Assembly (NCBI RefSeq): GCF_007746075.1
Contig: NZ_CP036339.1
Location: 2,056,885 to 2,120,884 of the forward strand
Source: Lacipirellula limnantheis
Lineage (GTDB): Bacteria; Planctomycetota; Planctomycetia; Pirellulales; Lacipirellulaceae
Length of the DNA: 64,000 nucleotides
Reading direction: 5' to 3'
This document shows, piece by piece, positions 10,141 through 60,717 of this stretch. The notes below the pieces were generated by a model. The model did not search any database. It saw only the letters and a list, made by a program, of their open reading frames with translations, and was not told the origin of the DNA. The first letter of the stretch is position 1, and each line of letters begins with the position of its first letter. A program made the position numbers and the translations under genes.

Positions 10141-10310
10141 GAGATTACCCACGAAAAAGACGAAAGGGAATTGCTAAAACTACACCGCTAATTGACGCTG
10201 ATAGGACGCTGATGAAATGCAGTTTTCTATTCTATTAGCGTCCTATCAGCGTTCATTAGCGGTTAGGCAATCTCCGTATTTCATTTCGTGCTGCTCGTCT
10301 TTTTCGTGGT
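10141..10310. repeat. large dispersed palindromic element
   Basis: An outer perfect 15-base inverted repeat has arms at 10149-10163 (CCACGAAAAAGACGA) and 10295-10309. An inner imperfect 29-base pair, about 26 of 29 matching, lies at 10185-10213 and 10234-10262 and contains the unit ACGCTGATAGGACGCT. The whole fills most of the space between the cupin gene and ligA and could fold into a long hairpin. Confidence 0.6.
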
Positions 10311-10313
10311 TAA

Positions 10314-12407
<2,094 letters not shown>

Positions 12408-44012: not shown

Positions 44013-44191
44013 GCCAAGGTAGGCGCAGAGCAGTTTTGAAGGGGGAAGCGCGGAGCACTCGGCCGCGTTGGCCGGAACAGCCAACGCGACGTCGCCTTCT
44101 TGCCTGGGCCGCTGGCTTTTCACACGGGAAGAGGCTTCCCGGATGGCGCCGCTCGCCCGACGCTGTGCGCCGACGTTACGGGAAAGAATCC

Positions 44192-45298
44192 ATGGGAACG
44201 ATCCTCATCGACAAGCTCCTCTCTGCTCAAGTCAAGCAGGGAGCGAGCGATCTCCATATCGCCGTCGGCCAGCCGCCGGTGTTGCGGCTGCACGGCCACA
44301 TGCAGAAGCTCAAGACCAAGGTGCTCGAGCCGGCCGACACGATGGCGCTCATGAAGAGCATCACGCCCGAACGCTGCCAGCAAGAGTTCCAGGAAACTGG
44401 CAGCGCCGACTTCGGTTTCGCCTTCGGCGACCAGGCCCGCTTCCGCGTGTCGGTCTTCCGGCAAAAGGGCAACGTCTCGATGGTCCTCCGGCAGATTCCG
44501 GTCAACCTCATGTCGATGGACCAGCTCGGCCTGCCGCATATCTTCAAGGATCTCATTCTCCGCCCGCGCGGTCTGCTGCTCGTCACCGGGCCTACCGGTT
44601 CGGGCAAATCGACGTCGCTGGCGGCGATGGTTGATCATCTCAATACCACGGTCGATCATCACATCATCACGATCGAAGACCCGATCGAGTTCTATCACAA
44701 CCACAAGAAGTCGACGGTCAACCAGCGCGAAGTCGGCGTCGACGTCACCTCGTTCGCCGAGGCGATTCGTCGCGCGTTGCGGCAGGACCCCGACGTCATC
44801 CTCGTCGGCGAATTGCGCGACCTCGAAACGATCGAGGCCGCCATCACCGCGGCCGAAACGGGCCACGTCGTGTTCGGCACGCTCCACACCAGTAGCGCCG
44901 CCGGCACGATCAATCGCGTCATCGACGTGTTTCCCAGCCATCAGCAGGACCAGATCCGCACGCAGCTCGCCACGGCGATCATCGGCATTCTCGCGCAGCA
45001 GCTCGTCCCCCGCATCGGCGGCGGCCGCGTCGCCGCCTTCGAGACGCTGGTCGTCACCCCCGGCATCGCGAACCTCATTCGCGAGAACAAGATTTTCCGC
45101 ATTACCTCGGCCATTCAAACCGGCTCGAAATACGGCATGCAACTCCTCGACGATCACTTGTTTCAGCACTGGCGGAACGAGGTCGCCACGAAAGAAGACG
45201 TGCTGATGAAGTCCAACAGTCCCGACGACCTCGCCAAGCGCATCGCCGCCGCCGAACGCGGCATTTTCGACGAACCGCAAGCTAACGAAGGCAACTAG
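44192..45298 (+). CDS. pilT: PilT-type retraction ATPase
   Basis: The 368-residue hexameric ATPase powers pilus retraction. It has the PilT-specific N-terminus (GTILIDKLLSAQVKQGASDLHIAVGQPPVLRLHG), Walker A GPTGSGKSTS, Asp box IEDPIEFYHNHKKSTV, Walker B LVGELRDLETIEAA and His box HVVFGTLHTSSAAGTINR. It lacks the zinc site and the N-terminal domain of GspE/PilB, as expected. The start at 44192 follows GGAAAG; the longer open frame upstream is not coding. Presence of PilT points to a retractable pilus rather than a simple secretion pseudopilus. Confidence 0.94.
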   Translation: MGTILIDKLLSAQVKQGASDLHIAVGQPPVLRLHGHMQKLKTKVLEPADTMALMKSITPERCQQEFQETGSADFGFAFGDQARFRVSVFRQKGNVSMVLRQIPVNLMSMDQLGLPHIFKDLILRPRGLLLVTGPTGSGKSTSLAAMVDHLNTTVDHHIITIEDPIEFYHNHKKSTVNQREVGVDVTSFAEAIRRALRQDPDVILVGELRDLETIEAAITAAETGHVVFGTLHTSSAAGTINRVIDVFPSHQQDQIRTQLATAIIGILAQQLVPRIGGGRVAAFETLVVTPGIANLIRENKIFRITSAIQTGSKYGMQLLDDHLFQHWRNEVATKEDVLMKSNSPDDLAKRIAAAERGIFDEPQANEGN

Positions 45299-45300
45299 AA

Positions 45301-45428
45301 AGCGGTCAGCGATCAGCTGTCAGCTTTCAGCCAGAGAAGACGAAAGCCCACTCGACGATTAGTACGCAATCCACTCTGCAAGAGATTCAACAACCCGCAT
45401 TAGCTGACTGCTGATCGCTGACCGCTGA
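45301..45428. repeat. inverted heptad repeat before the second gspE
   Basis: The left arm (45301-45332) is a seven-base tandem repeat of the type AGCGGTC/AGCGATC. The right arm (45401-45428) carries the same unit inverted (TCGCTGA/CCGCTGA). Seventeen bases of the arms are perfectly complementary. It nearly fills the gap between pilT and the second ATPase gene. Confidence 0.8.
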
Positions 45429-45440
45429 GAGCTTCCCTCC

Positions 45441-47156
45441 ATGGCCCAACGCCGCATCGGACAAATCCTGGTCGACCTCGGTTACGTCTCCGACGACCAG
45501 CTCGAATTGCTCCTCGAAGAGCAACATCAGCGCACTGGCCAACTTCTCGGCCAGGTCGCGCAGGACATGGGTCTGATCAATGACGATCAGCTGGCCCAGG
45601 CCCTTGCCGAACAACTTCACCTCCGCGTCGTCACGGTCACCGACCTCACGATCGACCCGAAGGTGATCGCCATGGTCACCGAGCCGATGGCGCAGATGTA
45701 CCGCATCATCCCCACCGAGTTCGACGGCAACACGCTCACCGTCGCTATGTGCGACCCGCAGAATCTCGGCGTGCAGGACGAGCTGCGCACGTTCCTCGGC
45801 TTCAACATTCGCGTCGTCGTCGCCACCGAGCCCGGCATCCTCAAGGCCCTCGAGCGCTACTACGGCGAGAGCACCGAAAGCGTCGAGTCGATCGTCACGG
45901 CGATGGAGGAAGACTCCGAACTCGCCGCCGCCGCCGCGAAGGTCGCCGGCAACTCGGTCGATCTCACCAGCGTCGAGGCCCTCGCCGACAGCGCCCCCGT
46001 CCGCAAGCTCCTCAACATGGTGCTGCTGCTGGCGATCAAGGACCACGCGAGCGACTTGCACTTCGAGCCGTTCGAGGACGAGTTCCGCATCCGCATCAAG
46101 GCCGACGGCGTCCTCTACGAAATGGTGCCGCCCCCCCGCCACTTGGCCTTTGCGATTACCACCCGCATCAAGGTCATGGCGAACCTCGACATCGCCGAAC
46201 GACGCATGCCGCAGGACGGCCGCATCGAGCTGACCGTCGGCGGTCACCCGGTCGATCTCCGAGTCAGCGTCCTGCCGACCATGTTCGGCGAGAGCGTCGT
46301 CATGCGGGTGCTCGACCGCTCGGTCGTGTCGCTCGACCTCCGCAACGTCGGCCTCGACGAAAAAACGATGGGGCAGTTCCGCGTCGCCATCAGCAAGCCG
46401 AACGGCATTGTCCTGGTCACCGGCCCGACCGGCTCCGGCAAAACGACCACCTTGTATTCTGCCCTGAATGAGCTCAACACAATCCACGACAAGCTCATCA
46501 CCACCGAGGATCCGGTCGAGTACGACATGGAGGGGATCATTCAGGTCCCCATCGACGCCTCGATCGGCAACACGTTCGCCGCTTGCCTGCGCGCCATTCT
46601 CCGGCAGGACCCCGACAAGATTCTTGTCGGCGAGATCCGCGACCTCGAAACGGCCGAAATCGCCGTCCAGGCGTCGCTCACCGGGCACATGGTTTTCAGC
46701 ACGCTCCACACCAACGACGCTCCCAGCACGATCACCCGCCTGAAAGATATGGGCGTGCCGGTGTTCATGATCAGCGCCACGGTCGAAGCGATTCTCGCCC
46801 AACGGCTCGTCCGTCGTATTTGCACGAAATGCCGCGAAGAGCACTCGCCGACCAAGGAAATGTTGGACGATTTGGAGCTTTCGCCCGCCGACCTCAAGGG
46901 AAAACGCTTTTTTCGTGGCTCTGGATGCGAAAATTGCAACAATACTGGGTACAAGGGACGCGTCGGTCTGTTCGAGCTGATGATCCTCAACAACGAGCTT
47001 CGCGAGATGATCATGCAGAACGCCTCGACCGACGATCTCCGCCAGGCGGCCCGCAAGAGCGGCATGGTCACGCTCCGCGACGCCGGCATGAAAGCTTGCT
47101 TCGAGGGAACGACCACCGCCGAGGAAGTCATCCGCGAAACGATTATGGAAGCGTAA
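45441..47156 (+). CDS. gspE: GspE/PilB-type secretion/pilus assembly ATPase, copy 2
   Basis: The 571-residue protein has the same architecture as copy 1: N-domain (AQRRIGQILVDLGYVSDDQLELLLEEQ), Walker A GPTGSGKTTT, Asp box TEDPVEYDMEGIIQVP, Walker B LVGEIRDLETAEIA, His box MVFSTLHTNDAPSTITR, zinc site (CTKCRE, CENCNNTGYKGRVGLFE). The N-domains of the two copies differ strongly while the ATPase cores are close, so they probably bind different inner-membrane platforms. This copy sits next to the gspF gene and the pseudopilins and is the likelier partner of that set. Confidence 0.94.
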   Translation: MAQRRIGQILVDLGYVSDDQLELLLEEQHQRTGQLLGQVAQDMGLINDDQLAQALAEQLHLRVVTVTDLTIDPKVIAMVTEPMAQMYRIIPTEFDGNTLTVAMCDPQNLGVQDELRTFLGFNIRVVVATEPGILKALERYYGESTESVESIVTAMEEDSELAAAAAKVAGNSVDLTSVEALADSAPVRKLLNMVLLLAIKDHASDLHFEPFEDEFRIRIKADGVLYEMVPPPRHLAFAITTRIKVMANLDIAERRMPQDGRIELTVGGHPVDLRVSVLPTMFGESVVMRVLDRSVVSLDLRNVGLDEKTMGQFRVAISKPNGIVLVTGPTGSGKTTTLYSALNELNTIHDKLITTEDPVEYDMEGIIQVPIDASIGNTFAACLRAILRQDPDKILVGEIRDLETAEIAVQASLTGHMVFSTLHTNDAPSTITRLKDMGVPVFMISATVEAILAQRLVRRICTKCREEHSPTKEMLDDLELSPADLKGKRFFRGSGCENCNNTGYKGRVGLFELMILNNELREMIMQNASTDDLRQAARKSGMVTLRDAGMKACFEGTTTAEEVIRETIMEA

Positions 47157-47165
47157 GAGACGTCC

Positions 47166-47245
47166 GTGGTCAGTTGTCAGTAGCCAGTTGCCGGTTAGAC
47201 CAAGCCAACTCCCGCCACTGACGACGGACCACTGACAACCGACAG
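47166..47245. repeat. inverted heptad repeat between gspE and gspF
   Basis: The left arm 47166-47195 is built from units like GTGGTCA/GTTGTCA/GTAGCCA; the right arm 47216-47245 from the inverted units CACTGAC/CACTGAC. The period is seven bases in both arms. Confidence 0.75.
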
Positions 47246-47322
47246 AGTTAAAGGAACGGGACTGAGGACCCATTTCGGACAGCGTCGCTTCAGCGACCAG
47301 TCCGACGCTAAGGACCGCCGCA

Positions 47323-48651
47323 ATGCCAACATTCCAATTCGAGGCGATGGACTCCACGGGCGCGGAGATCAAGGACGTCATCGACGCCGCCACCGAGGAA
47401 GATGCGCAAGCGACTATTCGGCAGATGGGGTACTTCGTTACGAAGATCTCCGTCAAGAAGGCCCGCAAGAAGGCCGAAGCGGGCGGTGCCAAAAAGAAGC
47501 GGGGCTTCGTTTTCGGCGGCGTCAAATCCAAGGACCTCACCGCGTTCACCCGGCAGCTTTCCATCCTGCAGGACGCCGGCCTGCCGATTCTGCGCTCGCT
47601 CCGCATTCTCGGCGAACAAGCGAAGCCCGGCCGGCTCAAATACTCCCTCGAAGACACGTGCGAAGCGATCGAAGGCGGCGACACCCTCTCCGAGGCGATG
47701 GCCAAATCGCCCAAGGCCTTCGATCGTCTCTACGTCAACATGATCAAGGCGGGCGAGGCGGGCGGCGCCCTTGAAGTCATTCTCCAACGTCTCGCCGACT
47801 TCAAGGAACGGGCCGAATCCCTCAAACGCAAGGTCAAGTCGGCGATGATCTACCCGGTCGTCGTCGTCACGGTCGCCGTCGGCATCTTGACCTTCATCAT
47901 GATCAAGATCGTCCCGAGCTTCCAAAGCATCTTCGAGGACTTCGACCTCGAACTGCCGGTCCTCACCGTCTATCTGATCAACGTCGCCAATTGGTGCCAA
48001 ACCTACTGGTATCTCATCCCCGGCATCCCGGTCGCCATTTGGCTGACCATCAAGCTCATTCGCAAATTCAAGCATGGGCGCATCGGCTGGGACCAGTTCG
48101 TCATCAAGGTGCCGATCTTCGGCAACCTCATCGAGAAGAACATCATGGCCCGCACGTCGCGGACCCTCGGCACCCTGATCGCCTCGGGCGTGCCGATTCT
48201 CGAGGCCCTCAACATCACGCGCGAGACGGCCGGCAACGCCATCTTCGAGAAGATGTTCGCCAAAATCAGCGAAAGGATCCGCGAGGGCGACGCCATCGCC
48301 GCCCCGATGAAGGAATACTCGCGCCTCAGTTTCCACCCCGTCGCGGCCTTCTTCTGGTTCTGCTTCATCGGCGGCCCCATCGGCCTGCTGATTTACATGA
48401 TGAAGTACCGCCAACGGGTGGTCGACGACATCGTGGTGAACATGGTCGACGTCGGCGAGGAAACGGGCGAGCTCGACACGATGCTCTACAAAGTGGCCGA
48501 CACCTACGACGAAGAAGTCGCTGTCCTCACCGACGGTCTGACGAAGCTGATGGAACCGCTGCTGATCATCTTCCTCGGCGGCGCCGTCGGCTTCATCGTC
48601 ATCGCCCTGTTCGTCCCCCTGGTCGACCTCATCAACAACCTGTCGGGCTAG
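47323..48651 (+). CDS. gspF: GspF/PilC inner-membrane platform protein
   Basis: The 442-residue polytopic membrane protein forms the platform on which the ATPase acts. The N-terminus is MPTFQFEAMDSTGAEIKDVI, typical of GspF. Two T2SSF domains follow (about 70-200 and 270-400), with the conserved AFTRQLSILQDAGLPILRSL and ARTSRTLGTLIASGVPILEAL motifs and helices at about 175-200, 225-250, 340-360 and 410-435. A basic spacer (KKARKKAEAGGAKKKRG) precedes the first domain. It is one gene downstream of the second gspE, as in standard systems. Confidence 0.94.
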   Translation: MPTFQFEAMDSTGAEIKDVIDAATEEDAQATIRQMGYFVTKISVKKARKKAEAGGAKKKRGFVFGGVKSKDLTAFTRQLSILQDAGLPILRSLRILGEQAKPGRLKYSLEDTCEAIEGGDTLSEAMAKSPKAFDRLYVNMIKAGEAGGALEVILQRLADFKERAESLKRKVKSAMIYPVVVVTVAVGILTFIMIKIVPSFQSIFEDFDLELPVLTVYLINVANWCQTYWYLIPGIPVAIWLTIKLIRKFKHGRIGWDQFVIKVPIFGNLIEKNIMARTSRTLGTLIASGVPILEALNITRETAGNAIFEKMFAKISERIREGDAIAAPMKEYSRLSFHPVAAFFWFCFIGGPIGLLIYMMKYRQRVVDDIVVNMVDVGEETGELDTMLYKVADTYDEEVAVLTDGLTKLMEPLLIIFLGGAVGFIVIALFVPLVDLINNLSG

Positions 48652-49234
48652 GCGGGAAATAATCGAATGACGAAACCCGAATGACGAATGGAGCGGAATC
48701 CACCCCTCATTCGTCATTCGTCATTTAGGCATTCGTCATTCCGCCCCCAGAGGGCGCCGTGGTTAGTTCCCAGTCCCCGTCAAAGTAGTTAAACTCCATC
48801 CGGCACACAGTTTGCGGTTGCTAGCGAAGTCTCGTGCGAACTTGCTATTTTCCGCGGACTTGCGTCGGGGGGCGCCTTATTCCGCTTTGCGAAATCAATC
48901 AACTCGTCTCGTTCTGATACCCTCCGCCCGCAGGGCGAGGGCCAGCTTGAGGGGTTAACAACGCCGTCGTTTCCAGCGCAGCGAGGAAACCCAACGGCGC
49001 GACCAATTTCGCAACTCGGAATGATGCCCTTTTCCCACACAGGCGCTTAACCGCCAACCAGCCGGCTGGCCACGCCAGCCGGGAGGCCCGCCCAGCGGCA
49101 TGGCCCTCCCGGCCCGCGTGGCGGGCCGGCGAACCCGAACCGACCCCAACCCCCGTAAAACCGAACCGGCCCATCGGCCCCGATCCGACGGCCCCGTTGC
49201 ACGCCGACACGAGCCAGACAAGGAGTTCCCGACC
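48652..49234. other. intergenic region with heptad repeat and GC-rich hairpin
   Basis: The repeat at 48663-48745 consists of ATGACGA/ATTCGTC units in opposite orientations. Next comes an AT-richer stretch without a clear promoter. A large GC-rich inverted segment lies at about 49066-49130 (GCCGGGAGG paired with CCTCCCGGC). The ribosome binding site AAGGAG of the next gene is at 49220-49225. Confidence 0.6.
48663..48745. repeat. inverted heptad repeat after gspF
   Basis: Units of the type AATGACG/AATGACG on the left and CATTCGT/CATTCGT/CATTCCG on the right, with period seven and inverted orientation. The arms are separated by only about 15 bases, so a long hairpin is possible just past the gspF stop. 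Confidence 0.75.
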
Positions 49235-50335
49235 ATGCAAGATTCGCAATCAGCCGTCAGCCGTAAGCCGTCAGCGGTCAGCCGCCCCGCTCATCGTCTC
49301 TCCCCTCCGACCTCCGACCTCCGACCTCTGGCCTCCCGCCGCTCGGCATTCACCCTCACCGAACTGCTGATCGTCATCGCGATCATCGGCATCCTGGCCA
49401 GCCTGATCGCCGCCGCCGCGGTGAACGCCATGCGCGCTGCTCGCCGCGGTCAGACCTTGCTGGAGATCAAGAACATCGCCGGGGCGATGGAGAATTTTAA
49501 GAACGACTATGGCGCCTATCCGCCGAATGGGATGAATCCCGACCCGAGCAAGGTTTCCACGGCCGGGTCCCCGGCGGCGCTGGTGAAAAGCGATTTTACC
49601 CGCGCGTTCAAAAAGGCGTTTCCCAAACATCAAGAGCCTCAGCAGTTGATCGATGCCTTGTCGGGAAACGGTCCGTCTGCCGTGAACCTACCGAACGGAA
49701 TGACGGCTGCCGAGGCGCTTTACTTCTGGCTCGGCGGCTTCAGCTCCGACGAGATTTATCCGATTTCCGGACCGAATGGCCCCTCGTTCCTGCAGGCCAA
49801 CGGGGAAGTTTTGGAGAATCGGGCGCGACGCTACGAGTTTGATCTCGGCCGACTCGGCCCGCGCAACGACAACGGCACGTACAAGCAAGGGACCGGCCCG
49901 ACCGACGGCAGGTTCTTGGTGTACCAATCGCCGATCCCGAGCGAGAACAACGCGAATCGGCAGATCAACTTGTGGCGCTATTCGCCCAAGGGGTCCGAGC
50001 AGCCGCTCGTTTACTTCGACACCTCGCGGCATAAGCCGTATCAGTACGATGCGGCTGCCTCGATGACGGCTCCCAATCTCTTTGCATTAAAGAAAGTTCG
50101 CGAGGGTTTGGCCGCGCCAAATACGCTGAAGGATATCGCCTTCGTCGATAACAAGTTCCAGATTCTTCATGCCGGTTTGGACGATGACTGGGGCGACTTT
50201 GGCCCTAGTGCGCTTGTCGCCGCAAATCCCAGCGCTCTAGTGGTGCTCTTCCCCACTGGCCCATTCATTGGACCAATCGCCGATACGCTGACCAACTTCA
50301 CCGACGGCACGCTCGCCGACGAGTCGGAGCAATAA
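49235..50335 (+). CDS. GspG-like pseudopilin
   Basis: The 366-residue protein has a prepilin signal SAFTLTELLIVIAIIGILASL; cleavage before Phe39 keeps Glu5 of the mature protein. The leader of 38 residues is unusually long, and most of it is encoded by heptad repeats (SAVSRKPSAVSRP and PPTSDLRPLAS). The following NIAGAMENFKNDYGAYPPNGMNPD block resembles the GspG major pseudopilin, but the protein is more than twice the usual length, the extra being a beta-rich C-terminal domain. The start is well supported by AAGGAG nine bases upstream. It precedes three more pseudopilins within 4 kb. Confidence 0.85.
   Translation: MQDSQSAVSRKPSAVSRPAHRLSPPTSDLRPLASRRSAFTLTELLIVIAIIGILASLIAAAAVNAMRAARRGQTLLEIKNIAGAMENFKNDYGAYPPNGMNPDPSKVSTAGSPAALVKSDFTRAFKKAFPKHQEPQQLIDALSGNGPSAVNLPNGMTAAEALYFWLGGFSSDEIYPISGPNGPSFLQANGEVLENRARRYEFDLGRLGPRNDNGTYKQGTGPTDGRFLVYQSPIPSENNANRQINLWRYSPKGSEQPLVYFDTSRHKPYQYDAAASMTAPNLFALKKVREGLAAPNTLKDIAFVDNKFQILHAGLDDDWGDFGPSALVAANPSALVVLFPTGPFIGPIADTLTNFTDGTLADESEQ
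49251..49336 (+). repeat. heptad repeats encoding the leader of the first pseudopilin
   Basis: Two blocks of seven-base units lie inside the coding sequence: CAGCCGT/CAGCCGT/AAGCCGT/CAGCGGT (about 49251-49285) and CTCCGAC repeated three times then CTCTGGC (about 49305-49336). Because 21 bases make seven codons, each block gives a seven-residue protein period. Confidence 0.75.
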
Positions 50336-50338
50336 GCC

Positions 50339-51454
50339 ATGCAGAACCAATGCGGAACGTCGAATGGTCGTGGGGGCGCGAACCCTCAATCGCGCCGTCG
50401 CGCGCCGTCATTCCCCCTTCCCCTTTCTCCCTTCGCCCTTCAGCCTTCCCGCCGCCGCCGCGCCGTCACTCTCATCGAGCTGCTGATCACCATGACCATC
50501 ATGGCGATCATCAGCGCGGCGATCCTCGGCACGGCTGCGGCGGCGATCGAAAGCTCCCGCGAGAAGAAGACGCAAAGCCTCATCACCAAGATCCACACCC
50601 TGCTGATGGAACGCTACGCGTCGTACGAAACGCGTCGAGTTGAACTTGATCAGAGATGGATCACGAACTTAGACGGACTTAACCCGACGTTGCGCGGACA
50701 GGCCCTCGCCGACCTTCGTCTGCTCGGGTTGCGAGAGCTGATGAAGTACGAGATGCCCGATCGCTGGAGCGATGCGATTGGCGCCAAGCTTGGCCAGTCG
50801 CCCGTTCGCCCGGTCTTTTTGAGTCAGTTGCCCCCGCTCGCCCAAACGTACATTCGCCGCTCGCAGAACGCGACCGACGAGAACGAGGGCGCCGAATGTC
50901 TCTATTTGACGATCATGATGACCACGGCCGACGGCGAGGCCCGGTCGCTCTTTAACAAGCAAGACATCGGCGATACCGACAACGACGGCGCCCCAGAGTT
51001 CCTCGACGGTTGGGGAAAACCAATCACCTATCTTCGCTGGGCTCCCGGCTACTTCCCGCGGTCGTCTCTCGTGTCTGGCGATGGAGCAAATGATCACGAT
51101 CCGTTCGATCCTTATCAACGCGACCAGCCGGGTGCAATTCCCGCGAGTTACTCTGGCTCGTTGAGCGGGTTGCAGAACTACGTCATCGGCCTGCGCGACC
51201 AATATCCAGCGTTCCGCCTGATGCCGCTGGTTATCTCGGCCGGCCCCGACGGCGAGTACGACATCCTTACCTCGCGCGACAAAGTTGTGAACGTGGTCGG
51301 CGCAAATGAGATCAGCTTCAACCCCTACTTTATCGATTCGTCGTTAACGCCGATCGTCAGCGGAATGCCAACCTACGGATTAGGAATGCCCGACATCAGC
51401 GATAACACTGACACGACCAAAGACAACATCACCAACCACGACGTCCAGTATTAA
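50339..51454 (+). CDS. type II secretion/pilus pseudopilin, second
   Basis: The 371-residue protein starts three bases after the first pseudopilin stop. The prepilin signal is RRRAVTLIELLITMTIMAI, with cleavage expected before Val43, again after a long leader. Part of the leader (SFPLPLSPFALQPS) is encoded by heptad repeats. The rest is helical then beta-rich, with ESSREKKTQSLITKIHTLLMERY after the membrane helix and an acidic aspartate stretch (DIGDTDNDGAPEFLDGWGKPITYLRW) that may bind calcium, as in major pseudopilins. Function within the pseudopilus is not clear. Confidence 0.83.
   Translation: MQNQCGTSNGRGGANPQSRRRAPSFPLPLSPFALQPSRRRRAVTLIELLITMTIMAIISAAILGTAAAAIESSREKKTQSLITKIHTLLMERYASYETRRVELDQRWITNLDGLNPTLRGQALADLRLLGLRELMKYEMPDRWSDAIGAKLGQSPVRPVFLSQLPPLAQTYIRRSQNATDENEGAECLYLTIMMTTADGEARSLFNKQDIGDTDNDGAPEFLDGWGKPITYLRWAPGYFPRSSLVSGDGANDHDPFDPYQRDQPGAIPASYSGSLSGLQNYVIGLRDQYPAFRLMPLVISAGPDGEYDILTSRDKVVNVVGANEISFNPYFIDSSLTPIVSGMPTYGLGMPDISDNTDTTKDNITNHDVQY
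50409..50450 (+). repeat. heptad repeats encoding the leader of the second pseudopilin
   Basis: Six consecutive seven-base units of the form CATTCCC/CCTTCCC/CTTTCTC/CCTTCGC/CCTTCAG/CCTTCCC lie within codons 24-38. Confidence 0.7.
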
Positions 51455-51495
51455 TTCGCCAGCCGCCCTACCGGGCGTGACCGAGAGACGCGGAC

Positions 51496-52827
51496 ATGAA
51501 CCAAGAATGTCGAATGCTGAATAGGGAATGGGGAATGATTTCTCATGCGACGCGCTCCGCGCCTTCATTCCCCATTCCCCATTCCCCACTCCCCATTCGT
51601 CATTCCCGCCCCGCCCTCACCCTCATCGAACTCCTGATCACCATCGTCATCATGGTGACCGTCCTCGCCGGGGCCCTGCCGCTCCTCTCCCCCAACAACA
51701 ACAGCCGCAAGCTCCGCGAAGCCTCCCGCCAGCTCAGCTCGCTCCTTTCGCAGGCCCAGGCCCAAGCCGCCCGCGACGGCCGCCCCGTCGGCGTGGCCTT
51801 CCGCGAAACGGGAACCCAGGCGCCCCACAGCGGCATGGCCCTCGAAGCGTATATGATCGCCGAGCCCCCGCCATTTACGGGCTTCAGCGAGCATTCCCGC
51901 GTCGCGGCAACTCTGCACCAGGACAAAATCACCTACGGCGGAAACGTCAACGGCAATGGCGGTACCATGTTCGCGCCGCGATACACCGGATACCCCATCT
52001 GGCAACTGATTTTCTCGCTCTACGGCGTCGAAGATCAGATTCCGCCGCGGATGCTCCGCAACGGCGACGTCCTGAACATCGGCGGCAATGTCTTTCTGAT
52101 TGTCGACGACGGCGGATCGACCGAAGGCGCCCACCAAATCGATCAGTTTACCGGCTACGTCATGCCCACCAGCCGCATGATCGCCATCTGGCTGAACAGC
52201 AACGGCCAGCAAATCCCGCCCGGCGCCAAGGGTTACTCTTTCGCCCGCCAGCCGGTCAACACGTCCGACCAACCGCTCCAATTCCCGCGCGGCATCGGCG
52301 TCGATCTCGCTGCGTCCGGCGCCGACGGACTCAACGTCCCCGAACAATTCGACGAAGTGTTGCCCATTACCTCTTCGAAGACCACCCCGCTGACGGTCGG
52401 CGTGATGTTCAGCCCGAACGGCTCGCTCGACAGGCTGTACGTCGACGGCGTTCGCAAGGAGGGCGTCGAGCAGGTTTATTTTCTGATGGGGCTCTTTGAG
52501 AACGGCAATTCCGAGGCGCAGGATCCCGCCGACTACGATTTCACCGCCGGCGCCAGCATCACGGACGACGAGCTCGCTCAACGCCGGGCGCGAATCAACT
52601 GGCTCAACCCTGACAGCCGCTGGGTCACGGTCAATCGCGCCGGGAGAATCATCACGACGGATAACTACGTGAGTTTCAATCCACGGCTGTCGCCCTATGC
52701 AGACTCCGTCACCGGCACGCCGCGTGAGCAGAATCTGGCTCGGTTGCGGTTACAGCTTAACGGCAATGGTTCCAATCCAGGCGCCCGCCAGTTTGCCAAG
52801 AACATGATCAACTCCACCGGCCGCTAA
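51496..52827 (+). CDS. type II secretion/pilus pseudopilin, third
   Basis: The 443-residue protein has the prepilin signal SRPALTLIELLITIVIMVTVL, with cleavage before Leu41. It is preceded by a leader in which residues 3-16 and 23-38 are encoded by two inverted heptad repeat arms. The post-helix segment (REASRQLSSLLSQAQAQAARDGRPVGVAFRETG) matches GspH/FimT-type minor pseudopilins. The C-terminal 300 residues are beta-rich and not recognised. It lies 41 bases after the second pseudopilin. Confidence 0.83.
   Translation: MNQECRMLNREWGMISHATRSAPSFPIPHSPLPIRHSRPALTLIELLITIVIMVTVLAGALPLLSPNNNSRKLREASRQLSSLLSQAQAQAARDGRPVGVAFRETGTQAPHSGMALEAYMIAEPPPFTGFSEHSRVAATLHQDKITYGGNVNGNGGTMFAPRYTGYPIWQLIFSLYGVEDQIPPRMLRNGDVLNIGGNVFLIVDDGGSTEGAHQIDQFTGYVMPTSRMIAIWLNSNGQQIPPGAKGYSFARQPVNTSDQPLQFPRGIGVDLAASGADGLNVPEQFDEVLPITSSKTTPLTVGVMFSPNGSLDRLYVDGVRKEGVEQVYFLMGLFENGNSEAQDPADYDFTAGASITDDELAQRRARINWLNPDSRWVTVNRAGRIITTDNYVSFNPRLSPYADSVTGTPREQNLARLRLQLNGNGSNPGARQFAKNMINSTGR
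51503..51607 (+). repeat. inverted heptad repeat encoding the leader of the third pseudopilin
   Basis: The left arm (51503-51540) has units GAATGTC/GAATGCT/GAATAGG/GAATGGG/GAATGAT. The right arm (51565-51607) has CATTCCC three times, CACTCCC, CATTCGT, CATTCCC. The two arms are inverted copies and can fold the first 110 bases of the gene into a long hairpin while remaining open as a reading frame. Confidence 0.8.
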
Positions 52828-52839
52828 CCGCCATCCCTC

Positions 52840-54219
52840 ATGACGAACCCCTCCCGCCACCGCCCAGCCGCAACCGCCGCCCGCCGCGCCCCGCGTGCCG
52901 CGACCGCCGCGCTGGCATGTTCAGCCGCCACCCGCCAGCTGACAGCCGCCGGCCGCCGCCGCTCCCGCCGCGGAATTTCGCTCCTCGAAGTCCTCATTTC
53001 GATGTTCGTCCTCCTCTTCGGCCTCATGGGCGTCGCCGCCATCTTCCCGGTCGGCAACCACTACGCCGGCCGCGGCGAGCAATTCGACCGCGGCTCCGCC
53101 CTCGCCGAAGCTGCCTTCGCCGAACTGAAGGCCCGCGGCATGCTCCAGCCCGAGCAGTGGTATTACGCCAATCCTCCCGCCGCCGACGCCCAGTACACCC
53201 CCCCCGCGGGCACGCCTTCGCCCGTTCTTCTGCCGCCTTCCGCCGGCGCCGCGGCGCAAACGTTCAACGTCCCCTTCGGGTCCGACAACCAGCCCGGCTA
53301 CGCCTTCGTCATCGATCCGATTGGAACCGCGCAGGGCCTCGAGGCGGCGACGCCTATCACCGCCGGCCTCGACTACTTCCCTTACATCAACCTGACCAAC
53401 GCCAGCACGACCGACGGCACGATCAACGCCGACCTCCCGCCCGGGTGGAAATCCGTCGCCATTGAAACCGAACGCTGGCCCGTCCGCCGCGTCACGCGGC
53501 CCGTTCCCAACCCCGCCAATCCCTCGGGTCCCCCCTTGGCGATGACCTCGGCCGTCGCCCAAACCATCTTCCAGCTTCACGACGACGTCACCAACGAGCT
53601 CCCCAAGGAGAACGATCGCCCCGGCATCCAGCGTTGGAACACCGACTCGGCCGGCGCCCTCAAAGAGGAGCCCTGGCGTCACAAACTGCTCTCCCGCTCG
53701 TTCACCGGCGGCTACTCCTGGCTCGCCACGGTCGTTCCTGCATCGATCGAAAGCCTCGTCGCCCTGCAGCCGGTCAACTCCCGTTTCGGCAGCGACCTAT
53801 ACGAGGTCTCCGTCGCCGTCCTCCATAAGCGAGAGGCGCTCCCCCCGTCGACCCCCGTCGAGCGCACGATCGCCGCGCAAATGCTGCAAGGCAACGAGTT
53901 GGTGATCTACGACCCCAATGCCGAAAACGTCGACGCCGCCGTGCAAGACGTTCGCGTCGGCCAGTGGATTCTCGTCGCCGGCGTCCATCCGACGACCGGC
54001 CAGTTCCTCATGAAGTGGTACCGCATTCTCTCGCTCGACGATGAGACGGACGAAACGACCGGCCCGAACCCGCTGCGCCGCGCCATGCTCGACGGACCTG
54101 CTTGGCCGATGACCACCACCAGCGGCGTGGTTACCCCTGCGAACAACCTCCGCGCCATCATCCTCCCCGGCGTCATCAGCGTCGCCACGCAAATGCTGCC
54201 GATGGAGGCCGCTCCGTAG
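52840..54219 (+). CDS. PilV/GspI-like minor pseudopilin
   Basis: The 459-residue protein has a basic alanine-rich leader of 45 residues, then RGISLLEVLISMFVLLFGLMGVAAIFP. The sequence G-I-S-L-L-E-V-L-I with FVLLFGLMG is the signature of PilV/GspI-like minor pilins. The following SALAEAAFAELKARGML block fits. The remaining 350 residues form a large beta-rich domain containing DLYEVSVAVLHKRE and ILVAGVHPTTGQFLMKWYRI; they have no match I can name. It starts 12 bases after the previous gene. This is the fourth pseudopilin in order. Confidence 0.82.
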   Translation: MTNPSRHRPAATAARRAPRAATAALACSAATRQLTAAGRRRSRRGISLLEVLISMFVLLFGLMGVAAIFPVGNHYAGRGEQFDRGSALAEAAFAELKARGMLQPEQWYYANPPAADAQYTPPAGTPSPVLLPPSAGAAAQTFNVPFGSDNQPGYAFVIDPIGTAQGLEAATPITAGLDYFPYINLTNASTTDGTINADLPPGWKSVAIETERWPVRRVTRPVPNPANPSGPPLAMTSAVAQTIFQLHDDVTNELPKENDRPGIQRWNTDSAGALKEEPWRHKLLSRSFTGGYSWLATVVPASIESLVALQPVNSRFGSDLYEVSVAVLHKREALPPSTPVERTIAAQMLQGNELVIYDPNAENVDAAVQDVRVGQWILVAGVHPTTGQFLMKWYRILSLDDETDETTGPNPLRRAMLDGPAWPMTTTSGVVTPANNLRAIILPGVISVATQMLPMEAAP

Positions 54220-54371
54220 AACGAGATGCTAGACGCTGGCTCCGCGCTTCGAAACGTGCGCGAAGCGATCCAGCATCAAGCAACCAGCAACCGTATTCCA
54301 CAACCGACCGCCGACCTCCTCGCCGCACACGCATACTTGGGGCAAAACAAGTATCACAGGATAGTCCCATC

Positions 54372-57300
54372 ATGTTTCGCCTCCCGACCTTTCGACTCCG
54401 CCGCGCCTCCCGCCGCAACGCTCCGCGCCGCAGCGCCCCGCGCCGCGCCCGCGTCGCGCGCACCAGCCGCAGCCGCCCGGCCCGCCGCGCGCGGCTCCTC
54501 ACCCGCCGTGCCAAGCTGAACGCCGCCCGCCGCCCCCGCCGCGGCGTCCTCCTGCTAGTGGTCCTCAGCCTGCTGGTCCTGTTCCTGATGGTCGGCACCG
54601 CGTTCGTGATCACGGCCAAGCAGTCCGAAAAGGCCGCCAAGAGCGCGATGAAGGCCACCGTCCGCATCGCCGGCGAAGCCGCGCAAGCCGACCTCCTCGA
54701 CGAGGTCCTCCTCCAAATCGTCCGCGACACGAACAACCCCTACAGCAGCCTCCGCTTCCACTCGCTGCTGGGGGATATGTACGGGAATGATGGGCTGAAG
54801 GGGGTGGTTGTCGCTGGTTCCTCGGCCTGGGCAGGCGGCATGGCTAGTAACTTTACTGGCGGCCAGATGCTTGAATTTCAAGTCTCGACCGCTGCCAACA
54901 CGCTGCGGGATCTCTACGGCAATACCGTCGACGCCTCGGGCGCTCCGCTCGCCTTCTCCAATCTCGACAACGCCTACAACGGTCAGGTCCTCACCTTCCT
55001 CAGCGGCATCGCCAAGGGACGCAGCACGCGCATCGTCGGGTTCCTCCCGCCCAATACGTTTCGTGTGATGAACGTGCAGCTTGAAGATGGCACGATCATC
55101 ACCGATCCAACGCTGCTATCCAACGCCGCCAATCCCACGCGCGTCCTCATCAACGGCCGCCCCTTCAGCGGCACCGGCGTCGGCTTCAATCCGTGGGCAA
55201 TCGATTCGAACACCGCGAAAGTCCCGAAGCTCAGCGCACAGGAGACCCTCACCGGCGGCCTCGGCCCCTTCCCGCTCGCCCTCATGCCGAACGCGGCCTT
55301 CCAGCTGACCGGTCCCGCGACGGGGTCGTCGCTGGTCAACATCACGCTCCCCGGCACGCCTCCGCCCAGCGCCACGCTTCCGCATCGCGACTACTACTTC
55401 CGTCCGACGACCACGGCGTTCTTCGATTACGCCGGCCGCGGCGGCGCCAACGAAGGCTACGATGCGCCCGATTTCCAAAACATGGCGCTCGCCTACCTGC
55501 CGGCGACGCAACTCATTGAAACTGCGTTACCAGACGTCACGGTAGGGACGCTTCCGTCCGCCCTGTCGCTCGCCGGAGCGACAGGCGCCAGCGCGATGGT
55601 GATCCCTTCATGGCACCGTCCAGACTTAATCAACTACTGGGCCAATCAAACCCCGTTCGCGAGCGGCCCCGATCTCCGGGGCTCGACGCTGGCTACTCCT
55701 CCGGGCGCTGCGCTCCTCCGCCGCATCCTCCTCCGCCCCAACTGGATCGATCACCCCAATTTCACCGGCAGCAATCCCGAATTCGCTGCGATTTCCGCTG
55801 GTCAGCCCGGCCAAAAGCTCGCCCGCATGGTCTACGGCCCCTGGGACGTCGACAACGACAACGACGGCTTCCGCGACAGCGTCTGGGTCGACGTCGGCCT
55901 GCCGGTAATGGCCGGCCCTAACGGCAAGCTGGTCAAGCCCCTTGTCGCCATGCTCATCACCGATATGGACAGCCGCGCCAACGCTAACGCGGCCGGATCG
56001 TGCGATCTGGCCGCCGCCTGGGGCCCGGCTGGTTTGACGGGCATGCCTCCCGGCTCTGGCCAGCGCCTCGCCTCCCCGACGGTCACCTCCGATTTGATGC
56101 CCCACGGCCAAGGTTTCGGTCCCGCCGACGTCAGCCTGGAGCAGGTCATCGGCCGGAACGACTTTCAGACCATGCTCGTCGGCAAGACAGTCGGCGGACA
56201 GGACGTACCTGGTCGGTACGGCCACGCTAACGGGACTTCGGTCCGACCCGGATCGCCCAACACCTACGATTTACTCGCTCAGATTCAGTTTTTTGGTTGG
56301 CCCGCCAAACCCAACGTTCGCTCGAGTTTCGGCACGCCGTCCGACTTGCGCGCTCGCTATGGCCTCGGCGTCAATGCCTACGGTCAGCCAGCCTTCGACG
56401 CGACGCTCAGCAAGGAAGTCAGCGCGATGAACAACGGGCAGGATCCGGGGCTGCTCATGGACTCGCCCTATGAACTGAATCTCTCGCAGAAATCCGCGGC
56501 CGGCGTCCAAGGCTACGCAGCCAGCGGCTACGGCAACGCCGCCGATGCGCCATTCTCGGTCGCCGAGATGGAGCGTCTCCTACGGCCGTTCGACGCCGAC
56601 GCCGGCGCCCTGCCCAGCCGCATGGCCCTCCTATCGGGAGTCTTAAATACGACCAATCCCCAAGATTTCGCGGCCCGCAACAAGATCACCAGCGACAGCT
56701 TCGATCTGCCGACGCCTAACATTTCGCTCCCCCACGAAATGGCGGAAGAGCAAACGATGTATTCGACCGATCCTCGCTTTCGGCGCCCGCCGCGCACTGC
56801 CGCCGAGCTGGTCGAAATGCGTGTCCGCAAGGCCCTGAACTTGCCGCCATTCCCGCTGCCGGTGACCGGTCCGAACGTCCTGAAGTACCGTAACGCGATG
56901 CGCACGCTAGTGGCCCCCGAACTGGTCAACGGTTCGCGGCTCAACGTCAATCGCCCCATAGGCAACGGCTACGACGATCAGACGGCGCCCGGCAATCCCG
57001 GTTACGGCGTCGTCGACGAACCGGGCGAAGAGCAGTCGACCCCGCGCCCGATCTGGCAAGCGACCGATGCGACGATGGCCCGCGCGTCGGGCTTTAACGC
57101 CAACTTCCCGGCGTATGCCACGGAGTACCCCCTCGATCCCTCCAGTCCAGATCCCAATAACCCCAATTACTTGCCGGCCCGCCAGGTCGATCATCGCCAG
57201 CTGCTGGCGCGTCATCTCTACGTCTTGGCGCTCACCACCGCGGCCGAGGCCGACTACGACGGCACGCGCACGGCCGACAAGCAGCTCGCCCAGCGCATTG

Positions 57301-60173
57301 CCCAGTGGGCGATCAACGTCGTTGACTTCCGCGACGCCGACAACATCATGACGCCGTTCGAATACGACCTGAATCCGTTCGACGGCTGGGACGTCAACGG
57401 CTGGCTCGGCGACAAGTCTCCGGGGCCGGACGGACTCGTCGGTACTAACGACGACGTTACCGAGACGCCAGCCGACGACGCCGAAAACTATCGCGGGCTC
57501 GTTTGGGGCGCCGAGCGCCCCGAGCTCCTGATGACCGAGACGCTGGCGTGGCACGACCGCAACACCACCGACGAAGCCGACGAAGATCCCAATCAGGGAG
57601 AAACCCAGGCGACGACCACGGATCGACCGATCCCCGACCCCGACTTCGACCAGCTCTATCGCCCCCGCGGCGCATTCTTTTTGGAACTTTTCAATCCTTG
57701 GCCGTCGACGCTGGCGCCGAGTCTCGATACGCATGCCGCCAACAATCAAGGTCAGGATTACGGCGTCAACCTCGCCGCCGTCGATCAACGCACGGGCAAC
57801 TCGGGCGTGTGGCGCGTGATCGTCACTCGCGACGTCGACCCGTCGAAGGATCCCGATGACCCCGTGAAGGCGAATCAACCCACGGCGATTGATCGTTCGA
57901 TTTACTTCACTGAGAAAGATCCCGGCTTGCCGGATGATGGCGTTGCCTTTTTCAAGCATCCGCGGGACCCGGCGGCGCCTGCGGTGCGACCGGGACGCTA
58001 CATGGTCGTCGGTTCCGGCAAGGAAGACGACAATGAGAAGGGCGTTTACGTTAATCAACTGGGGCAACGCCTCGACCAGACCCCCTCGCAGCGTCCGCGC
58101 AAGCCGCTCCGGCGGATTGAGCTCGATACCACCAACAGCCCTCATGCCGTTCGCTTGATCGATAACGTCACGGCGGACGATGCCGTCGCGCAGAACAGCC
58201 AGACCGGGACGCCCTATCGCCTGGAGGCCCCGTCCGAGCAGGAAGCTGGCAACATCGTCGCGCCGGTCGACGGCAATCAGGGGCAGTCGGTCACCGACGT
58301 CGCCGTGATCAATGGCGTCGGCAACGGCGATCGGCGTCGCTTCACGTTGTCGGAGCCTGCCACGGGCTATCCCAGTCGCGTCGGCAACGTTCAGTTCGTT
58401 CCCTTCACCAACGCCCGCGGCAGCAAGAATGACCCCAGCGAGGAAGGACAGTACTGCCAAGGCGCTGATCCGAATACCCCGAAGGCGATCGACACGCCGC
58501 TGGACGACGGCGATCCCGAACTGATGAAGCTGGGGACCGACTTCAATCGAGGTCGGCGTCTGTTCCTGCAACGGCTCGCCAACCCGCTGCTGCCCCACGA
58601 TGCGACGACCAATCCCTATCTCACCGTCGACGACACGCAGGCTTACATCACCGTCTTCAACGGGCGGCTCAGTTCAACGCAGCAAGAACTCGGCGATCGC
58701 AACACGGTGGTCCGCAGCGGCTTTTCGGGCGTCGAACGCGGCTACGGGGCGCGCAACCAGCAGGCCGATCGCGACCTTTGGAAGACGCGAGCTCAAGATA
58801 CGCAAACCTTCACTGACAAGGACACGAAGCGTCAAGCGATCAACGCCGATCCGATCTACTCGCTGTCGCGCATCCCGCAGACCACGCTCGGCTTCCTGAA
58901 TAGCCCCTACATGAAGGCGGCCGAAGGTAATGCGGTTACCAAGCGCCTTCAACCAGAGCAACCGTTTCCGTGGCTCACTTGGAACAATCGCCCCTATGTC
59001 AGCGGCAATGAACTAATGCTCGTGCCGCGGCATCGATCGTCGCAACTGCTGCGATACTTCCGCTCGGCCGAAAACCCGTCTGGCGCGTGGAACCAATACG
59101 ATCCGGCCGATCCTGACAATCCGAAGCAGCAGCTGGCGAACAAGAATTTCCAGCCCAAGCCCTTCAGCCATCTGGAGAATTTCTTCTCCACCGAGGGCGC
59201 TGCGCCGGTCGCCGGCGTGCCGCTCCACCTCTATCGCATGCTCGATTTGATCGAGACTCCGTCTCTGTTTGCCGGAACGGAGACCTGGTTGAACCCGGCC
59301 AATTTTTCGACTAGCGGCGGCGGCGGTACGGCGACGCCCTTGACCGGAGCAACCGATCCCCGCGTCAATCTTCTGGCGCCCTTTAACCGCATCTCCGAGT
59401 TCCGCGATCCGGGCCGCATCAACGTCAATACCGTCTCGGAGCGCGACTCAGCGTTTCCGACGCGAACCGTCTGGGACGGCATCTTCCATGGCCGCACGTC
59501 GCGCAGCGGCGGCAGCGATTCGAAGACCCACCCCGGCCCCGCGCTGGAGGAATGGGTCGCCTCCCGCCGCGGCTATGGCGCGAACACGGCGCCCGCCGCC
59601 ACACTGAACGCCAACATTCCGACGATGTTTGCCAATCCGCTGCGGGCCGCTGACGCGGGAGACCTGGTGCCGATCCCGGGCATGATGCGCGCGGGCGTCG
59701 ACTGCACGCTCCTGCGCAGCCTGAGCGGTACGGCCGGGGCGGCTGCCGCGCCTAGCGGCGAGCCTCTCTTTAGCGCCGACATGATCGGCAACGGCAACGA
59801 TCATCGCAATTCGCAGCGCAACGGTTTCTTCCGCTACCAGCCGATGGTGCGGCTGAACAACCTCGTCACCAACCGCTCGAACGTCTACGCCGTCTGGATC
59901 ACCATCGGCTTTTTCGAGGTCGAGGAAGCTCCTGACTACGCCCAGTTCCGCACCGACAACGGCGGTCTGCCGGACAATCCTGAGGTGAAGGCCCTCTACA
60001 ACCGCGTCTATCCTGACGGCTACCAGTTTGGTCGCGAGGATGGCGTCGACGTTGGCAACACCCGCCGCCTCCGCGGGTTCTACATGATCGACCGCACGAT
60101 GATGGCCGGCTACGAGCCGGGCGCCGACCACAATGTGGAGAACGTCGTCCGCCTCCGCCGCCGCATCGAGTGA
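54372..60173 (+). CDS. giant GspK-like pseudopilin (1,933 residues)
   Basis: The start at 54372 (MFRLPTFRLRR) follows from the preceding gene and codon use; an in-frame ATG at 54102 lies inside the PilV-like gene. A 58-residue, extremely arginine-rich leader precedes RRGVLLLVVLSLLVLFLMVGTAFV. Like GspK, the mature N-terminus lacks the Glu at position 5. GspK is normally about 300-330 residues, so this is some six times longer. The rest is probably extracytoplasmic, with aspartate-rich stretches that could bind calcium (DNDNDGFRDSVWVDVGLP near residue 497; DVNGWLGDKSPGPDGLVGTNDD near 1010) and a C-terminal block (YAVWITIGFFEVEEAPD) recalling GspK. The whole frame is open, without repeats. It would sit at the tip of the pseudopilus. 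Confidence 0.75.
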   Translation: MFRLPTFRLRRASRRNAPRRSAPRRARVARTSRSRPARRARLLTRRAKLNAARRPRRGVLLLVVLSLLVLFLMVGTAFVITAKQSEKAAKSAMKATVRIAGEAAQADLLDEVLLQIVRDTNNPYSSLRFHSLLGDMYGNDGLKGVVVAGSSAWAGGMASNFTGGQMLEFQVSTAANTLRDLYGNTVDASGAPLAFSNLDNAYNGQVLTFLSGIAKGRSTRIVGFLPPNTFRVMNVQLEDGTIITDPTLLSNAANPTRVLINGRPFSGTGVGFNPWAIDSNTAKVPKLSAQETLTGGLGPFPLALMPNAAFQLTGPATGSSLVNITLPGTPPPSATLPHRDYYFRPTTTAFFDYAGRGGANEGYDAPDFQNMALAYLPATQLIETALPDVTVGTLPSALSLAGATGASAMVIPSWHRPDLINYWANQTPFASGPDLRGSTLATPPGAALLRRILLRPNWIDHPNFTGSNPEFAAISAGQPGQKLARMVYGPWDVDNDNDGFRDSVWVDVGLPVMAGPNGKLVKPLVAMLITDMDSRANANAAGSCDLAAAWGPAGLTGMPPGSGQRLASPTVTSDLMPHGQGFGPADVSLEQVIGRNDFQTMLVGKTVGGQDVPGRYGHANGTSVRPGSPNTYDLLAQIQFFGWPAKPNVRSSFGTPSDLRARYGLGVNAYGQPAFDATLSKEVSAMNNGQDPGLLMDSPYELNLSQKSAAGVQGYAASGYGNAADAPFSVAEMERLLRPFDADAGALPSRMALLSGVLNTTNPQDFAARNKITSDSFDLPTPNISLPHEMAEEQTMYSTDPRFRRPPRTAAELVEMRVRKALNLPPFPLPVTGPNVLKYRNAMRTLVAPELVNGSRLNVNRPIGNGYDDQTAPGNPGYGVVDEPGEEQSTPRPIWQATDATMARASGFNANFPAYATEYPLDPSSPDPNNPNYLPARQVDHRQLLARHLYVLALTTAAEADYDGTRTADKQLAQRIAQWAINVVDFRDADNIMTPFEYDLNPFDGWDVNGWLGDKSPGPDGLVGTNDDVTETPADDAENYRGLVWGAERPELLMTETLAWHDRNTTDEADEDPNQGETQATTTDRPIPDPDFDQLYRPRGAFFLELFNPWPSTLAPSLDTHAANNQGQDYGVNLAAVDQRTGNSGVWRVIVTRDVDPSKDPDDPVKANQPTAIDRSIYFTEKDPGLPDDGVAFFKHPRDPAAPAVRPGRYMVVGSGKEDDNEKGVYVNQLGQRLDQTPSQRPRKPLRRIELDTTNSPHAVRLIDNVTADDAVAQNSQTGTPYRLEAPSEQEAGNIVAPVDGNQGQSVTDVAVINGVGNGDRRRFTLSEPATGYPSRVGNVQFVPFTNARGSKNDPSEEGQYCQGADPNTPKAIDTPLDDGDPELMKLGTDFNRGRRLFLQRLANPLLPHDATTNPYLTVDDTQAYITVFNGRLSSTQQELGDRNTVVRSGFSGVERGYGARNQQADRDLWKTRAQDTQTFTDKDTKRQAINADPIYSLSRIPQTTLGFLNSPYMKAAEGNAVTKRLQPEQPFPWLTWNNRPYVSGNELMLVPRHRSSQLLRYFRSAENPSGAWNQYDPADPDNPKQQLANKNFQPKPFSHLENFFSTEGAAPVAGVPLHLYRMLDLIETPSLFAGTETWLNPANFSTSGGGGTATPLTGATDPRVNLLAPFNRISEFRDPGRINVNTVSERDSAFPTRTVWDGIFHGRTSRSGGSDSKTHPGPALEEWVASRRGYGANTAPAATLNANIPTMFANPLRAADAGDLVPIPGMMRAGVDCTLLRSLSGTAGAAAAPSGEPLFSADMIGNGNDHRNSQRNGFFRYQPMVRLNNLVTNRSNVYAVWITIGFFEVEEAPDYAQFRTDNGGLPDNPEVKALYNRVYPDGYQFGREDGVDVGNTRRLRGFYMIDRTMMAGYEPGADHNVENVVRLRRRIE

Positions 60174-60717
60174 GCGCAGGAAAGAGGACAGAGGTCAGAG
60201 GTCGGAGGTCAGAAGATAGTTGGCCCTAATCCCCTGACCTCCTCGCTCTGCAGATATACATCCGTTCACAATTCCGCCGACTTTTGTGTAGCAATTGGCC
60301 ACCAACTCTGAAACAATCACCATGCGAGCCCCGAGCATCAGCTCGGGGTTTCCCCCGACCCCTCCCCGAGTTTCGTCCGCCCCCAAGTGACAAAACCCCA
60401 CCCCGCCGGCCAGCGAAAAAGAGGCCCAATTTCCGGCACTTTTTGCGTGGCGCGCGGCGCAGGCGGACCAAAACCGGTCAGTTAGGTCACCAAGAATCAA
60501 CTTTCGCGTTCGGACAAAACAGATCCCCAATTGACGGCAATCACGCAACTCACGCCGATTGAGCACCCCCGCCTTCAGGCCGGGCCGACCCAACAATCCG
60601 CTGGCAGTTTTCCCATTTTCCAACGATCATAGACCATACGGAACGAGGACCGCGGCGCCGGCGCAGCTGGGCGCCGACCGCCCCGTGCGGCGACCACTTG
60701 AAGAGGCAACGACGACC
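60174..60717. other. intergenic region with heptad repeat and hairpin
   Basis: Heptad units of the type GAGGTCA/GAGGTCG occur at about 60187-60213, with the inverted unit CTGACCTC at 60233-60242. A stem CCCCGAGC-ATCA-GCTCGGGG at 60329-60348, followed by TTT, could terminate the pseudopilin operon. The rest has no supported gene. Confidence 0.55.

Follow-up and report, generated by a model that had tools for sequence, protein, structure and literature searches.

A secretion/pilus operon of the planctomycete Lacipirellula limnantheis contains tandem arrays of seven-base units (heptads), many of which form inverted arms around a loop and lie directly past stop codons. The operon was studied in a 64,000-nucleotide stretch of contig NZ_CP036339.1 (positions 2,056,885 to 2,120,884), referred to here as the window, from a genome of 6.83 Mb that, among named genomes, is closest to Bythopirellula, Adhaeretor, and other Pirellulales. 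We lean toward reading the arrays as the arms of post-stop RNA hairpins, comparable to the repetitive extragenic palindromes (REPs) of Escherichia coli, that tune the message of the gene before them or the translation of that message.

Arrays were detected with Tandem Repeats Finder (TRF) and an independent lag-7 scan with a cut-off of at least 17 of 21 matches. Both methods placed period-7 arrays at positions 45301, 47169, 49246, 49297, 50411, 51561, and 60176, and TRF made additional period-7 calls at 48664 and 48707. Neither method found a comparable period-7 array in the other 45 kb of the window, which confirms the seven heptad sites of an initial annotation made from the sequence alone. 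Among periods of 2 to 30 bp in the window, period 7 was the commonest by far; candidates at 52874, 54270, and 54521 were dismissed as GC-rich low complexity or weak. Inverted pairs, reported as frequent in that annotation, accounted for most arrays, and five of the seven sites folded as strong or moderate hairpins (z-scores of -5.6 at 45297, -4.9 at 47160, -4.5 at 48652, -7.2 at 51500, and -1.8 at 60176).

All features described are on the + strand. The hairpin 3' of the PilT-like gene (45299 to 45432; TRF period 7; fold energy, -54.1 kcal/mol) has TCAGCNN heptad arms at 45301 to 45332 and 45402 to 45432. About 20 dispersed copies of its arm occur across the genome, and among close relatives the element is private to the window, being missing from genomes G003 and G004. 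The hairpin 3' of gspE (47160 to 47246; TRF, folding, and relatives) has the form of four GTCMGTN units, a loop, and four inverted units and belongs to what we call family 1; the orthologous G003 element forms a perfect palindrome of 30 bp. At 12 nt from the stop of gspF, a hairpin of TCATTCG/GAATGAC units (48664 to 48742; TRF and folding) is common to the window and G003, and this element type has 33 pattern matches in the L. limnantheis genome. The hairpin of AGAGGTC units 3' of the giant GspK-like gene (60183 to 60243; TRF, lag-7 scan, and folding), about 10 nt from the stop, is likewise confined to the window when close relatives are compared, being missing from G003 and G004.

Three arrays are intragenic, between the start codon and the N_methyl motif of consecutive pseudopilin genes, in keeping with their earlier placement ahead of the prepilin cleavage site. 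The leader of pseudopilin 1 is encoded by two different direct arrays, TCAGCCG and CCTCCGA (49244 to 49336; TRF, lag-7 scan, and folding), that of pseudopilin 2 by a remnant GAATGNN arm and a TTCNNCC array (50350 to 50452; TRF and relatives), and that of pseudopilin 3 includes a heptad hairpin, GAATGGG/CATTCCC (51505 to 51608; TRF, lag-7 scan, and folding). Neither leader 1 nor leader 2, which retains a decayed 5' arm, gave a hairpin on folding. In relatives, leader 2 has a heptad hairpin beginning 4 to 15 nt past the upstream stop.

Distances to stop codons were measured with gene borders from a home-made codon-usage caller. Family 1, the element type of the gspE-gspF gap, was collected with a pattern that demanded three good units in one of the two arms and thus left out decayed orthologs, yielding 24 elements in genome G000 and 28 in G003. 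Forty of the 44 stop-facing elements started 18 nt or less from the stop (median, 5.5 nt), even in gaps of 300 to 700 nt, and 37 lay at 12 nt or less, whereas random placement in gaps put 24% within 20 nt. This result is independent of how the pattern ascertained family 1. Across all families, 15 of 31 intergenic elements in the L. limnantheis genome were within 20 nt of a stop, as were 12 of 18 post-gspE arrays, within 15 nt, in the type II secretion system (T2SS) loci of other species. For 51 leader arrays the next motif was measured, and 26 of these were within 16 nt of the upstream stop, compared with 10 expected under uniform placement and a maximum of 23 in 20000 simulations; those further out, at about 60 to 110 nt, are at least in part 3' arms. 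The stop codon is the coordinate common to coding and noncoding cases. Many leader arrays are post-stop arrays of the preceding gene, read into the next N-terminus because that gene begins right at the upstream stop, and they are tolerated because prepilin leaders are cleaved off.

The initial annotation had attributed the coding sites to the weak amino acid constraint on leaders. Distance from the upstream stop predicts array sites better. At other places in the genome, none of 30 DUF1559-type prepilin leaders had an array, so the arrays are not a general property of prepilin leaders, and arrays occurred in 18 of 79 T2SS gaps versus 0 of 100 flanking codirectional gaps (crude gene caller). 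Other results favored the earlier interpretation: pseudopilin leaders had a median length of 48 amino acids with arrays versus 19 without (p = 1e-10), and units were stop-free in all frames in 53 of 79 leader cases versus 23 of 78. Overall, the earlier interpretation was partly supported.

The suspected link between the repeats and this locus survived a density check. An evenly spaced 1.92-Mb sample of the L. limnantheis genome contained 27 elements (14/Mb), whereas the operon contained 6 in 15 kb compared to 0.21 expected (P ~1e-7), with a maximum elsewhere of 4 per 15 kb. Thus, the element class is genome-wide, yet the locus is a real concentration. Codon-block shuffles yielded 0 arrays, and period 7 (or its double) was the sole abundant period that was not a multiple of three. 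In an order-wide survey of 80 named gspF loci (1.20 Mb), 149 arrays were spread over 40 loci, and 143 of them fell within -2.1 to +7.5 kb of gspF. The rate was 329/Mb at +1 to +7.5 kb, the region of the pseudopilin genes, and 138/Mb just upstream of gspF, versus 6 to 12/Mb in the quiet outer flanks, a local concentration of 25- to 50-fold.

The units themselves were species specific (GGATTGC, CTCGCGC, ATCAAAC, AAAGCGG, ATTCATC, and more), with 102 distinct unit necklaces among 181 arrays and sharing in 52 of 145 comparisons between sites of one genome versus 10 of 157 between species. Against letter-permuted units, a control that ignores dinucleotide bias, letter order was nonrandom (52 versus 23 ± 3 log units) and necklaces common to at least three genomes were in excess (21 versus 2.4 unit-genome pairs). 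A universal unit grammar, NGANNNC, is not claimed; the fitted motif was weak (KKSNGNN), and the control takes no account of that bias.

Comparison of relatives bore out the suggestion that arrays are gained and lost. The gspE-gspF slot holds GTCMGTN units in the window and G003, TCAGCNN in G004, GCTGGAT-like units in G002, and GCGGAAT-like units in G034. Leader 1 arrays are present in the window and G034 and missing from G003, G002, and G001, and leader 2 has arrays with differing units in all six compared species. Slots are refilled between congeners, with arrays gained, lost, and replaced. In the 45301 slot, G003 and G004 have a palindrome of 8-nt units (GCGCAAAG...CTTTGCGC) and no heptads (L179, 1950 to 2090; L180, 1730 to 1880). 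The gspE-gspF gap of G004 (L180, 3620 to 3980) has further short palindromes of the GGGGCGTAAGCCCC type between two heptad arms, as if nested repeats had accumulated.

Family 1 is dispersed and restricted to the genus level, with nearly none in other genera. Each arm consists of four GTC[A/C]GT[N] units followed by GC and is 28 to 30 nt long, and the loops span 9 to 38 nt. Five unit positions are 95 to 100% fixed and two (positions 4 and 7) are free. In ten ortholog pairs with flanks 78 to 88% identical, changes affected 19 of 400 fixed positions, 52 of 160 free positions, and 56 of 167 loop positions (fixed versus free, p = 5e-17). The loops (L328 to L367) often have TGCTGTCGC at one end and pyrimidine-rich TTTA or TTTC at the other; they resemble a small core set between heptad arms, and their orientation to genes is mixed. 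Elhai and colleagues reportedly described in 2008 small dispersed repeats (SDR) of Nostoc punctiforme that are embedded in heptamers and have short semiconserved cores; the L. limnantheis elements differ in that their heptads flank the core in inverted orientation. No plasmid-borne copies of family 1 were found, a GGAATGC query giving partial matches in two unrelated records, and no known RNA family was recognized, the sole match being mir-598, far below gathering and within gspF.

According to the hairpin explanation that we favor, these structures would act as RNA, in cis, on the gene that they follow. They would either retain the ribosome as it terminates or protect the message from 3'-5' decay, and would thereby set relative yields inside polycistronic messages. 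The ribosome or mRNA is proposed as the site of action by analogy with E. coli, where ribosomes stall at REPs located 15 nt or less from a stop and mRNAs with 3' REPs live longer (PMC12306157). Several unrelated heptad families may fill this one role, each scattered through one genus and giving way to a different family in the next, and the PilT-GspE-GspF-pseudopilin operon of Pirellulales would be a favored location. If only a few nucleotides separate the stop from the start of the next gene, the hairpin would be translated as the N-terminus of that gene's product and tolerated since prepilin leaders are cut off. The explanation presupposes that the operon is transcribed as one message, that translation or decay is affected, and that selection rather than targeted insertion positioned the elements.

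Several observations weigh against this explanation. Leaders 1 and 3 of the window are 585 and 50 nt, respectively, from the upstream stop, and some post-stop arrays are single, without an inverted partner (L026 and L054). The hotspot was lacking from 20 more distant loci (4 from other families of the order and 16 from outside it), which contained 1 array in total. Array-free T2SS gaps were not clearly richer in other hairpins (12 of 61) than flanking gaps (12 of 100), so a hairpin is not required everywhere, and the idea of a conserved hairpin of any sequence in each T2SS gap was not clearly supported. Pattern collection inflates the apparent invariance of family 1, so that the strength of the constraint given above is an overestimate. 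The variable letters of the two arms matched at 3.94 of 8 positions, compared with 4.31 for random partners, so exact arm pairing is not kept; that the arms are fresh inverted copies of each other holds for the gspE-gspF element of G003 and fails for family 1 overall. Because the free letters do not match, this result argues that letters, and not pairing alone, matter in the arms, and either a sequence reader or homogenization by some process is possible.

A less probable explanation is a selfish or insertion-biased repeat that spreads near stops by some process, possibly RNA or hairpin mediated, in an operon that is merely tolerant, with no host function. The dispersed genus-level families, the swapping of families within one slot, and the lengthening of leaders by insertion all fit such a repeat, as does the interruption of an unrelated gene. 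In that case (L068, G000:C1:6589000-6608999, about 10300 to 11450), GGGTTCA and TGACTCC arrays break a gene, which we take to be RNase-HII-like from its sequence (MAILIGVDEAGYGPNYGPLAI...), at two places, the first in frame (GFRVQGSATG), a case of insertion within a gene unrelated to the operon. A purely selfish repeat accords poorly with the finding that orthologs are constrained at five of the seven positions of a unit and with stop-proximal placement even in long gaps. Moreover, no target-site duplication was recognized, the compared relatives offering no clean empty site, and no linked transposase was found. No link to REP-associated tyrosine transposases (RAYTs) was found: there were two PF01797 (Y1_Tnp) matches, and the one inspected (L326) has other, nonheptad palindromes around it. 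That Y1 transposase (RAYT) gene (L326, 1300 to 1950) has GCCTAGGGCAACGCCC-type palindromes of its own on either side and represents a second, unrelated REP system in the genome.

It seems unlikely that the arrays are sequence-specific protein-binding sites on DNA or RNA, at which a factor would read two opposed arms of four units each, recognizing a 5-base core that recurs at 7-base intervals. The fixed GTC-GT- core, with positions 4 and 7 free and no compensation between arms, is what such a factor would leave, and in Geobacter metallireducens paired arms of tandem hepta- or octanucleotides have been proposed as regulator sites (PMC2700814). However, stop-codon adjacency is a translation or RNA coordinate, a genome with several unrelated unit families would need a separate reader for each, and units spaced 7 bp apart do not keep phase with the DNA helix. 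Neutral slippage that favors heptanucleotides, as in other bacteria rich in long simple sequence repeats, and is tolerated where nothing is lost, is improbable. Long simple sequence repeats are mostly heptanucleotide in many genomes (summarized in PMC4679880 and PMC4692102), and units do vary inside arrays, but the local concentration with quiet flanks, the stop adjacency, the inverted architecture, the dispersed arm families, and the array-free prepilin leaders elsewhere all disfavor slippage. That the leader repeats are old coding sequence for conserved peptide features is contradicted: leader 2 has arrays in every compared species, but units and residues vary between species and array-free leaders work at 19 amino acids.

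The elements seem to have arisen independently as an equivalent of the REP hairpins that follow stop codons in E. coli, no RAYT having been recognized. As with REPs and bacterial interspersed mosaic elements (BIMEs) (PMC12306157 and its ref. 17), dispersed hairpins occupy the 3' regions of genes in polycistronic operons, many 15 nt or less from the stop. The elements studied here are palindromic, present in many copies, extragenic, and hairpin forming by computed folding, and many copies are 15 nt or less from the upstream stop (for family 1, the 37 of 44 given above). REPs/BIMEs are palindromes of 20 to 40 nt with one conserved sequence and a conserved end tetranucleotide; here the arms are four tandem heptads, no tetranucleotide common to the families was seen, there are many unit families, and some elements are translated into the next gene.

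The initial annotation had likened the repeats to the short tandemly repeated repetitive (STRR) sequences of filamentous cyanobacteria such as Calothrix and Nostoc (PMC4692102). The likeness holds for period 7, as for tandem, dispersed, mostly intergenic arrays of varying units, and fails for architecture; STRRs are direct arrays of few fixed units, with few paired inverted repeats reported in Nostoc, whereas here inverted four-unit arms around a loop prevail and necklaces are diverse. The GGGAATC heptamers of Xanthomonas (PMC4692102) are similar in that four-unit arrays are typical, convergent inverted pairs have been noted, and sister species have arrays of altered sequence close to the same genes; they differ in having a G-quadruplex unit, a single unit family, and a host in another phylum. 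TAACTGA repeats of Beggiatoaceae (PMC4679880) also adjoin gene borders, contain TCAG, and have a proposed translational role, but they are directly repeated and precede start codons, whereas the arms described here are inverted and follow stops. The paired sites of G. metallireducens (PMC2700814) share dispersed groups of three to five short tandem units on opposite strands with variable spacing; they are proposed IHF/HU sites, and the portion of that report consulted here does not describe an operon hotspot or leader coding. Heptamer arrays, their inverted pairs, and dispersed four-unit elements are therefore already known in other phyla (PMC4692102, PMC4679880, and PMC2700814). The heptad stop rule, the order-wide hotspot, and leaders derived from post-stop hairpins were not found in the papers searched, but this is weak evidence of novelty because most subscription papers were outside the search.

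The operon begins with a T2SSE-family, PilT-like ATPase (44036 to 45298; Pfam PF00437), followed by a GspE-like ATPase (45441 to 47156; PF00437 and MshEN) and GspF (47323 to 48651; PF00482). Downstream are pseudopilins 1 (49235 to 50335), 2 (50339 to 51454), 3 (GspH-like; 51496 to 52827), and 4 (52840 to 54219; GC-rich leader), all with N_methyl and the third with a weak GspH match. The last gene (54234 to 60173) encodes a very large protein of about 1979 amino acids with a GspK/PilX-like hydrophobic N-terminus (RRGVLLLVVLSLL) and no Pfam match. It has the same operon position in relatives, where its start region also bears heptads.

It is possible, although we propose it only tentatively, that Pirellulales keep the slot for heptad hairpins directly past T2SS and pseudopilin stops while the heptad family is repeatedly swapped. 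If so, the conserved slot would point to some general factor or process by which 7-nt units are made or read whatever their sequence, and the coding leaders would be by-products of regulatory RNA. The leaders also illustrate how an RNA hairpin with a presumed regulatory role can become part of the N-terminus of a protein. The stop codon gives the scattered reports of heptamers in cyanobacteria, Xanthomonas, Beggiatoa, and Geobacter a common testable coordinate, and the hotspot in this one operon has been quantified for a whole order.

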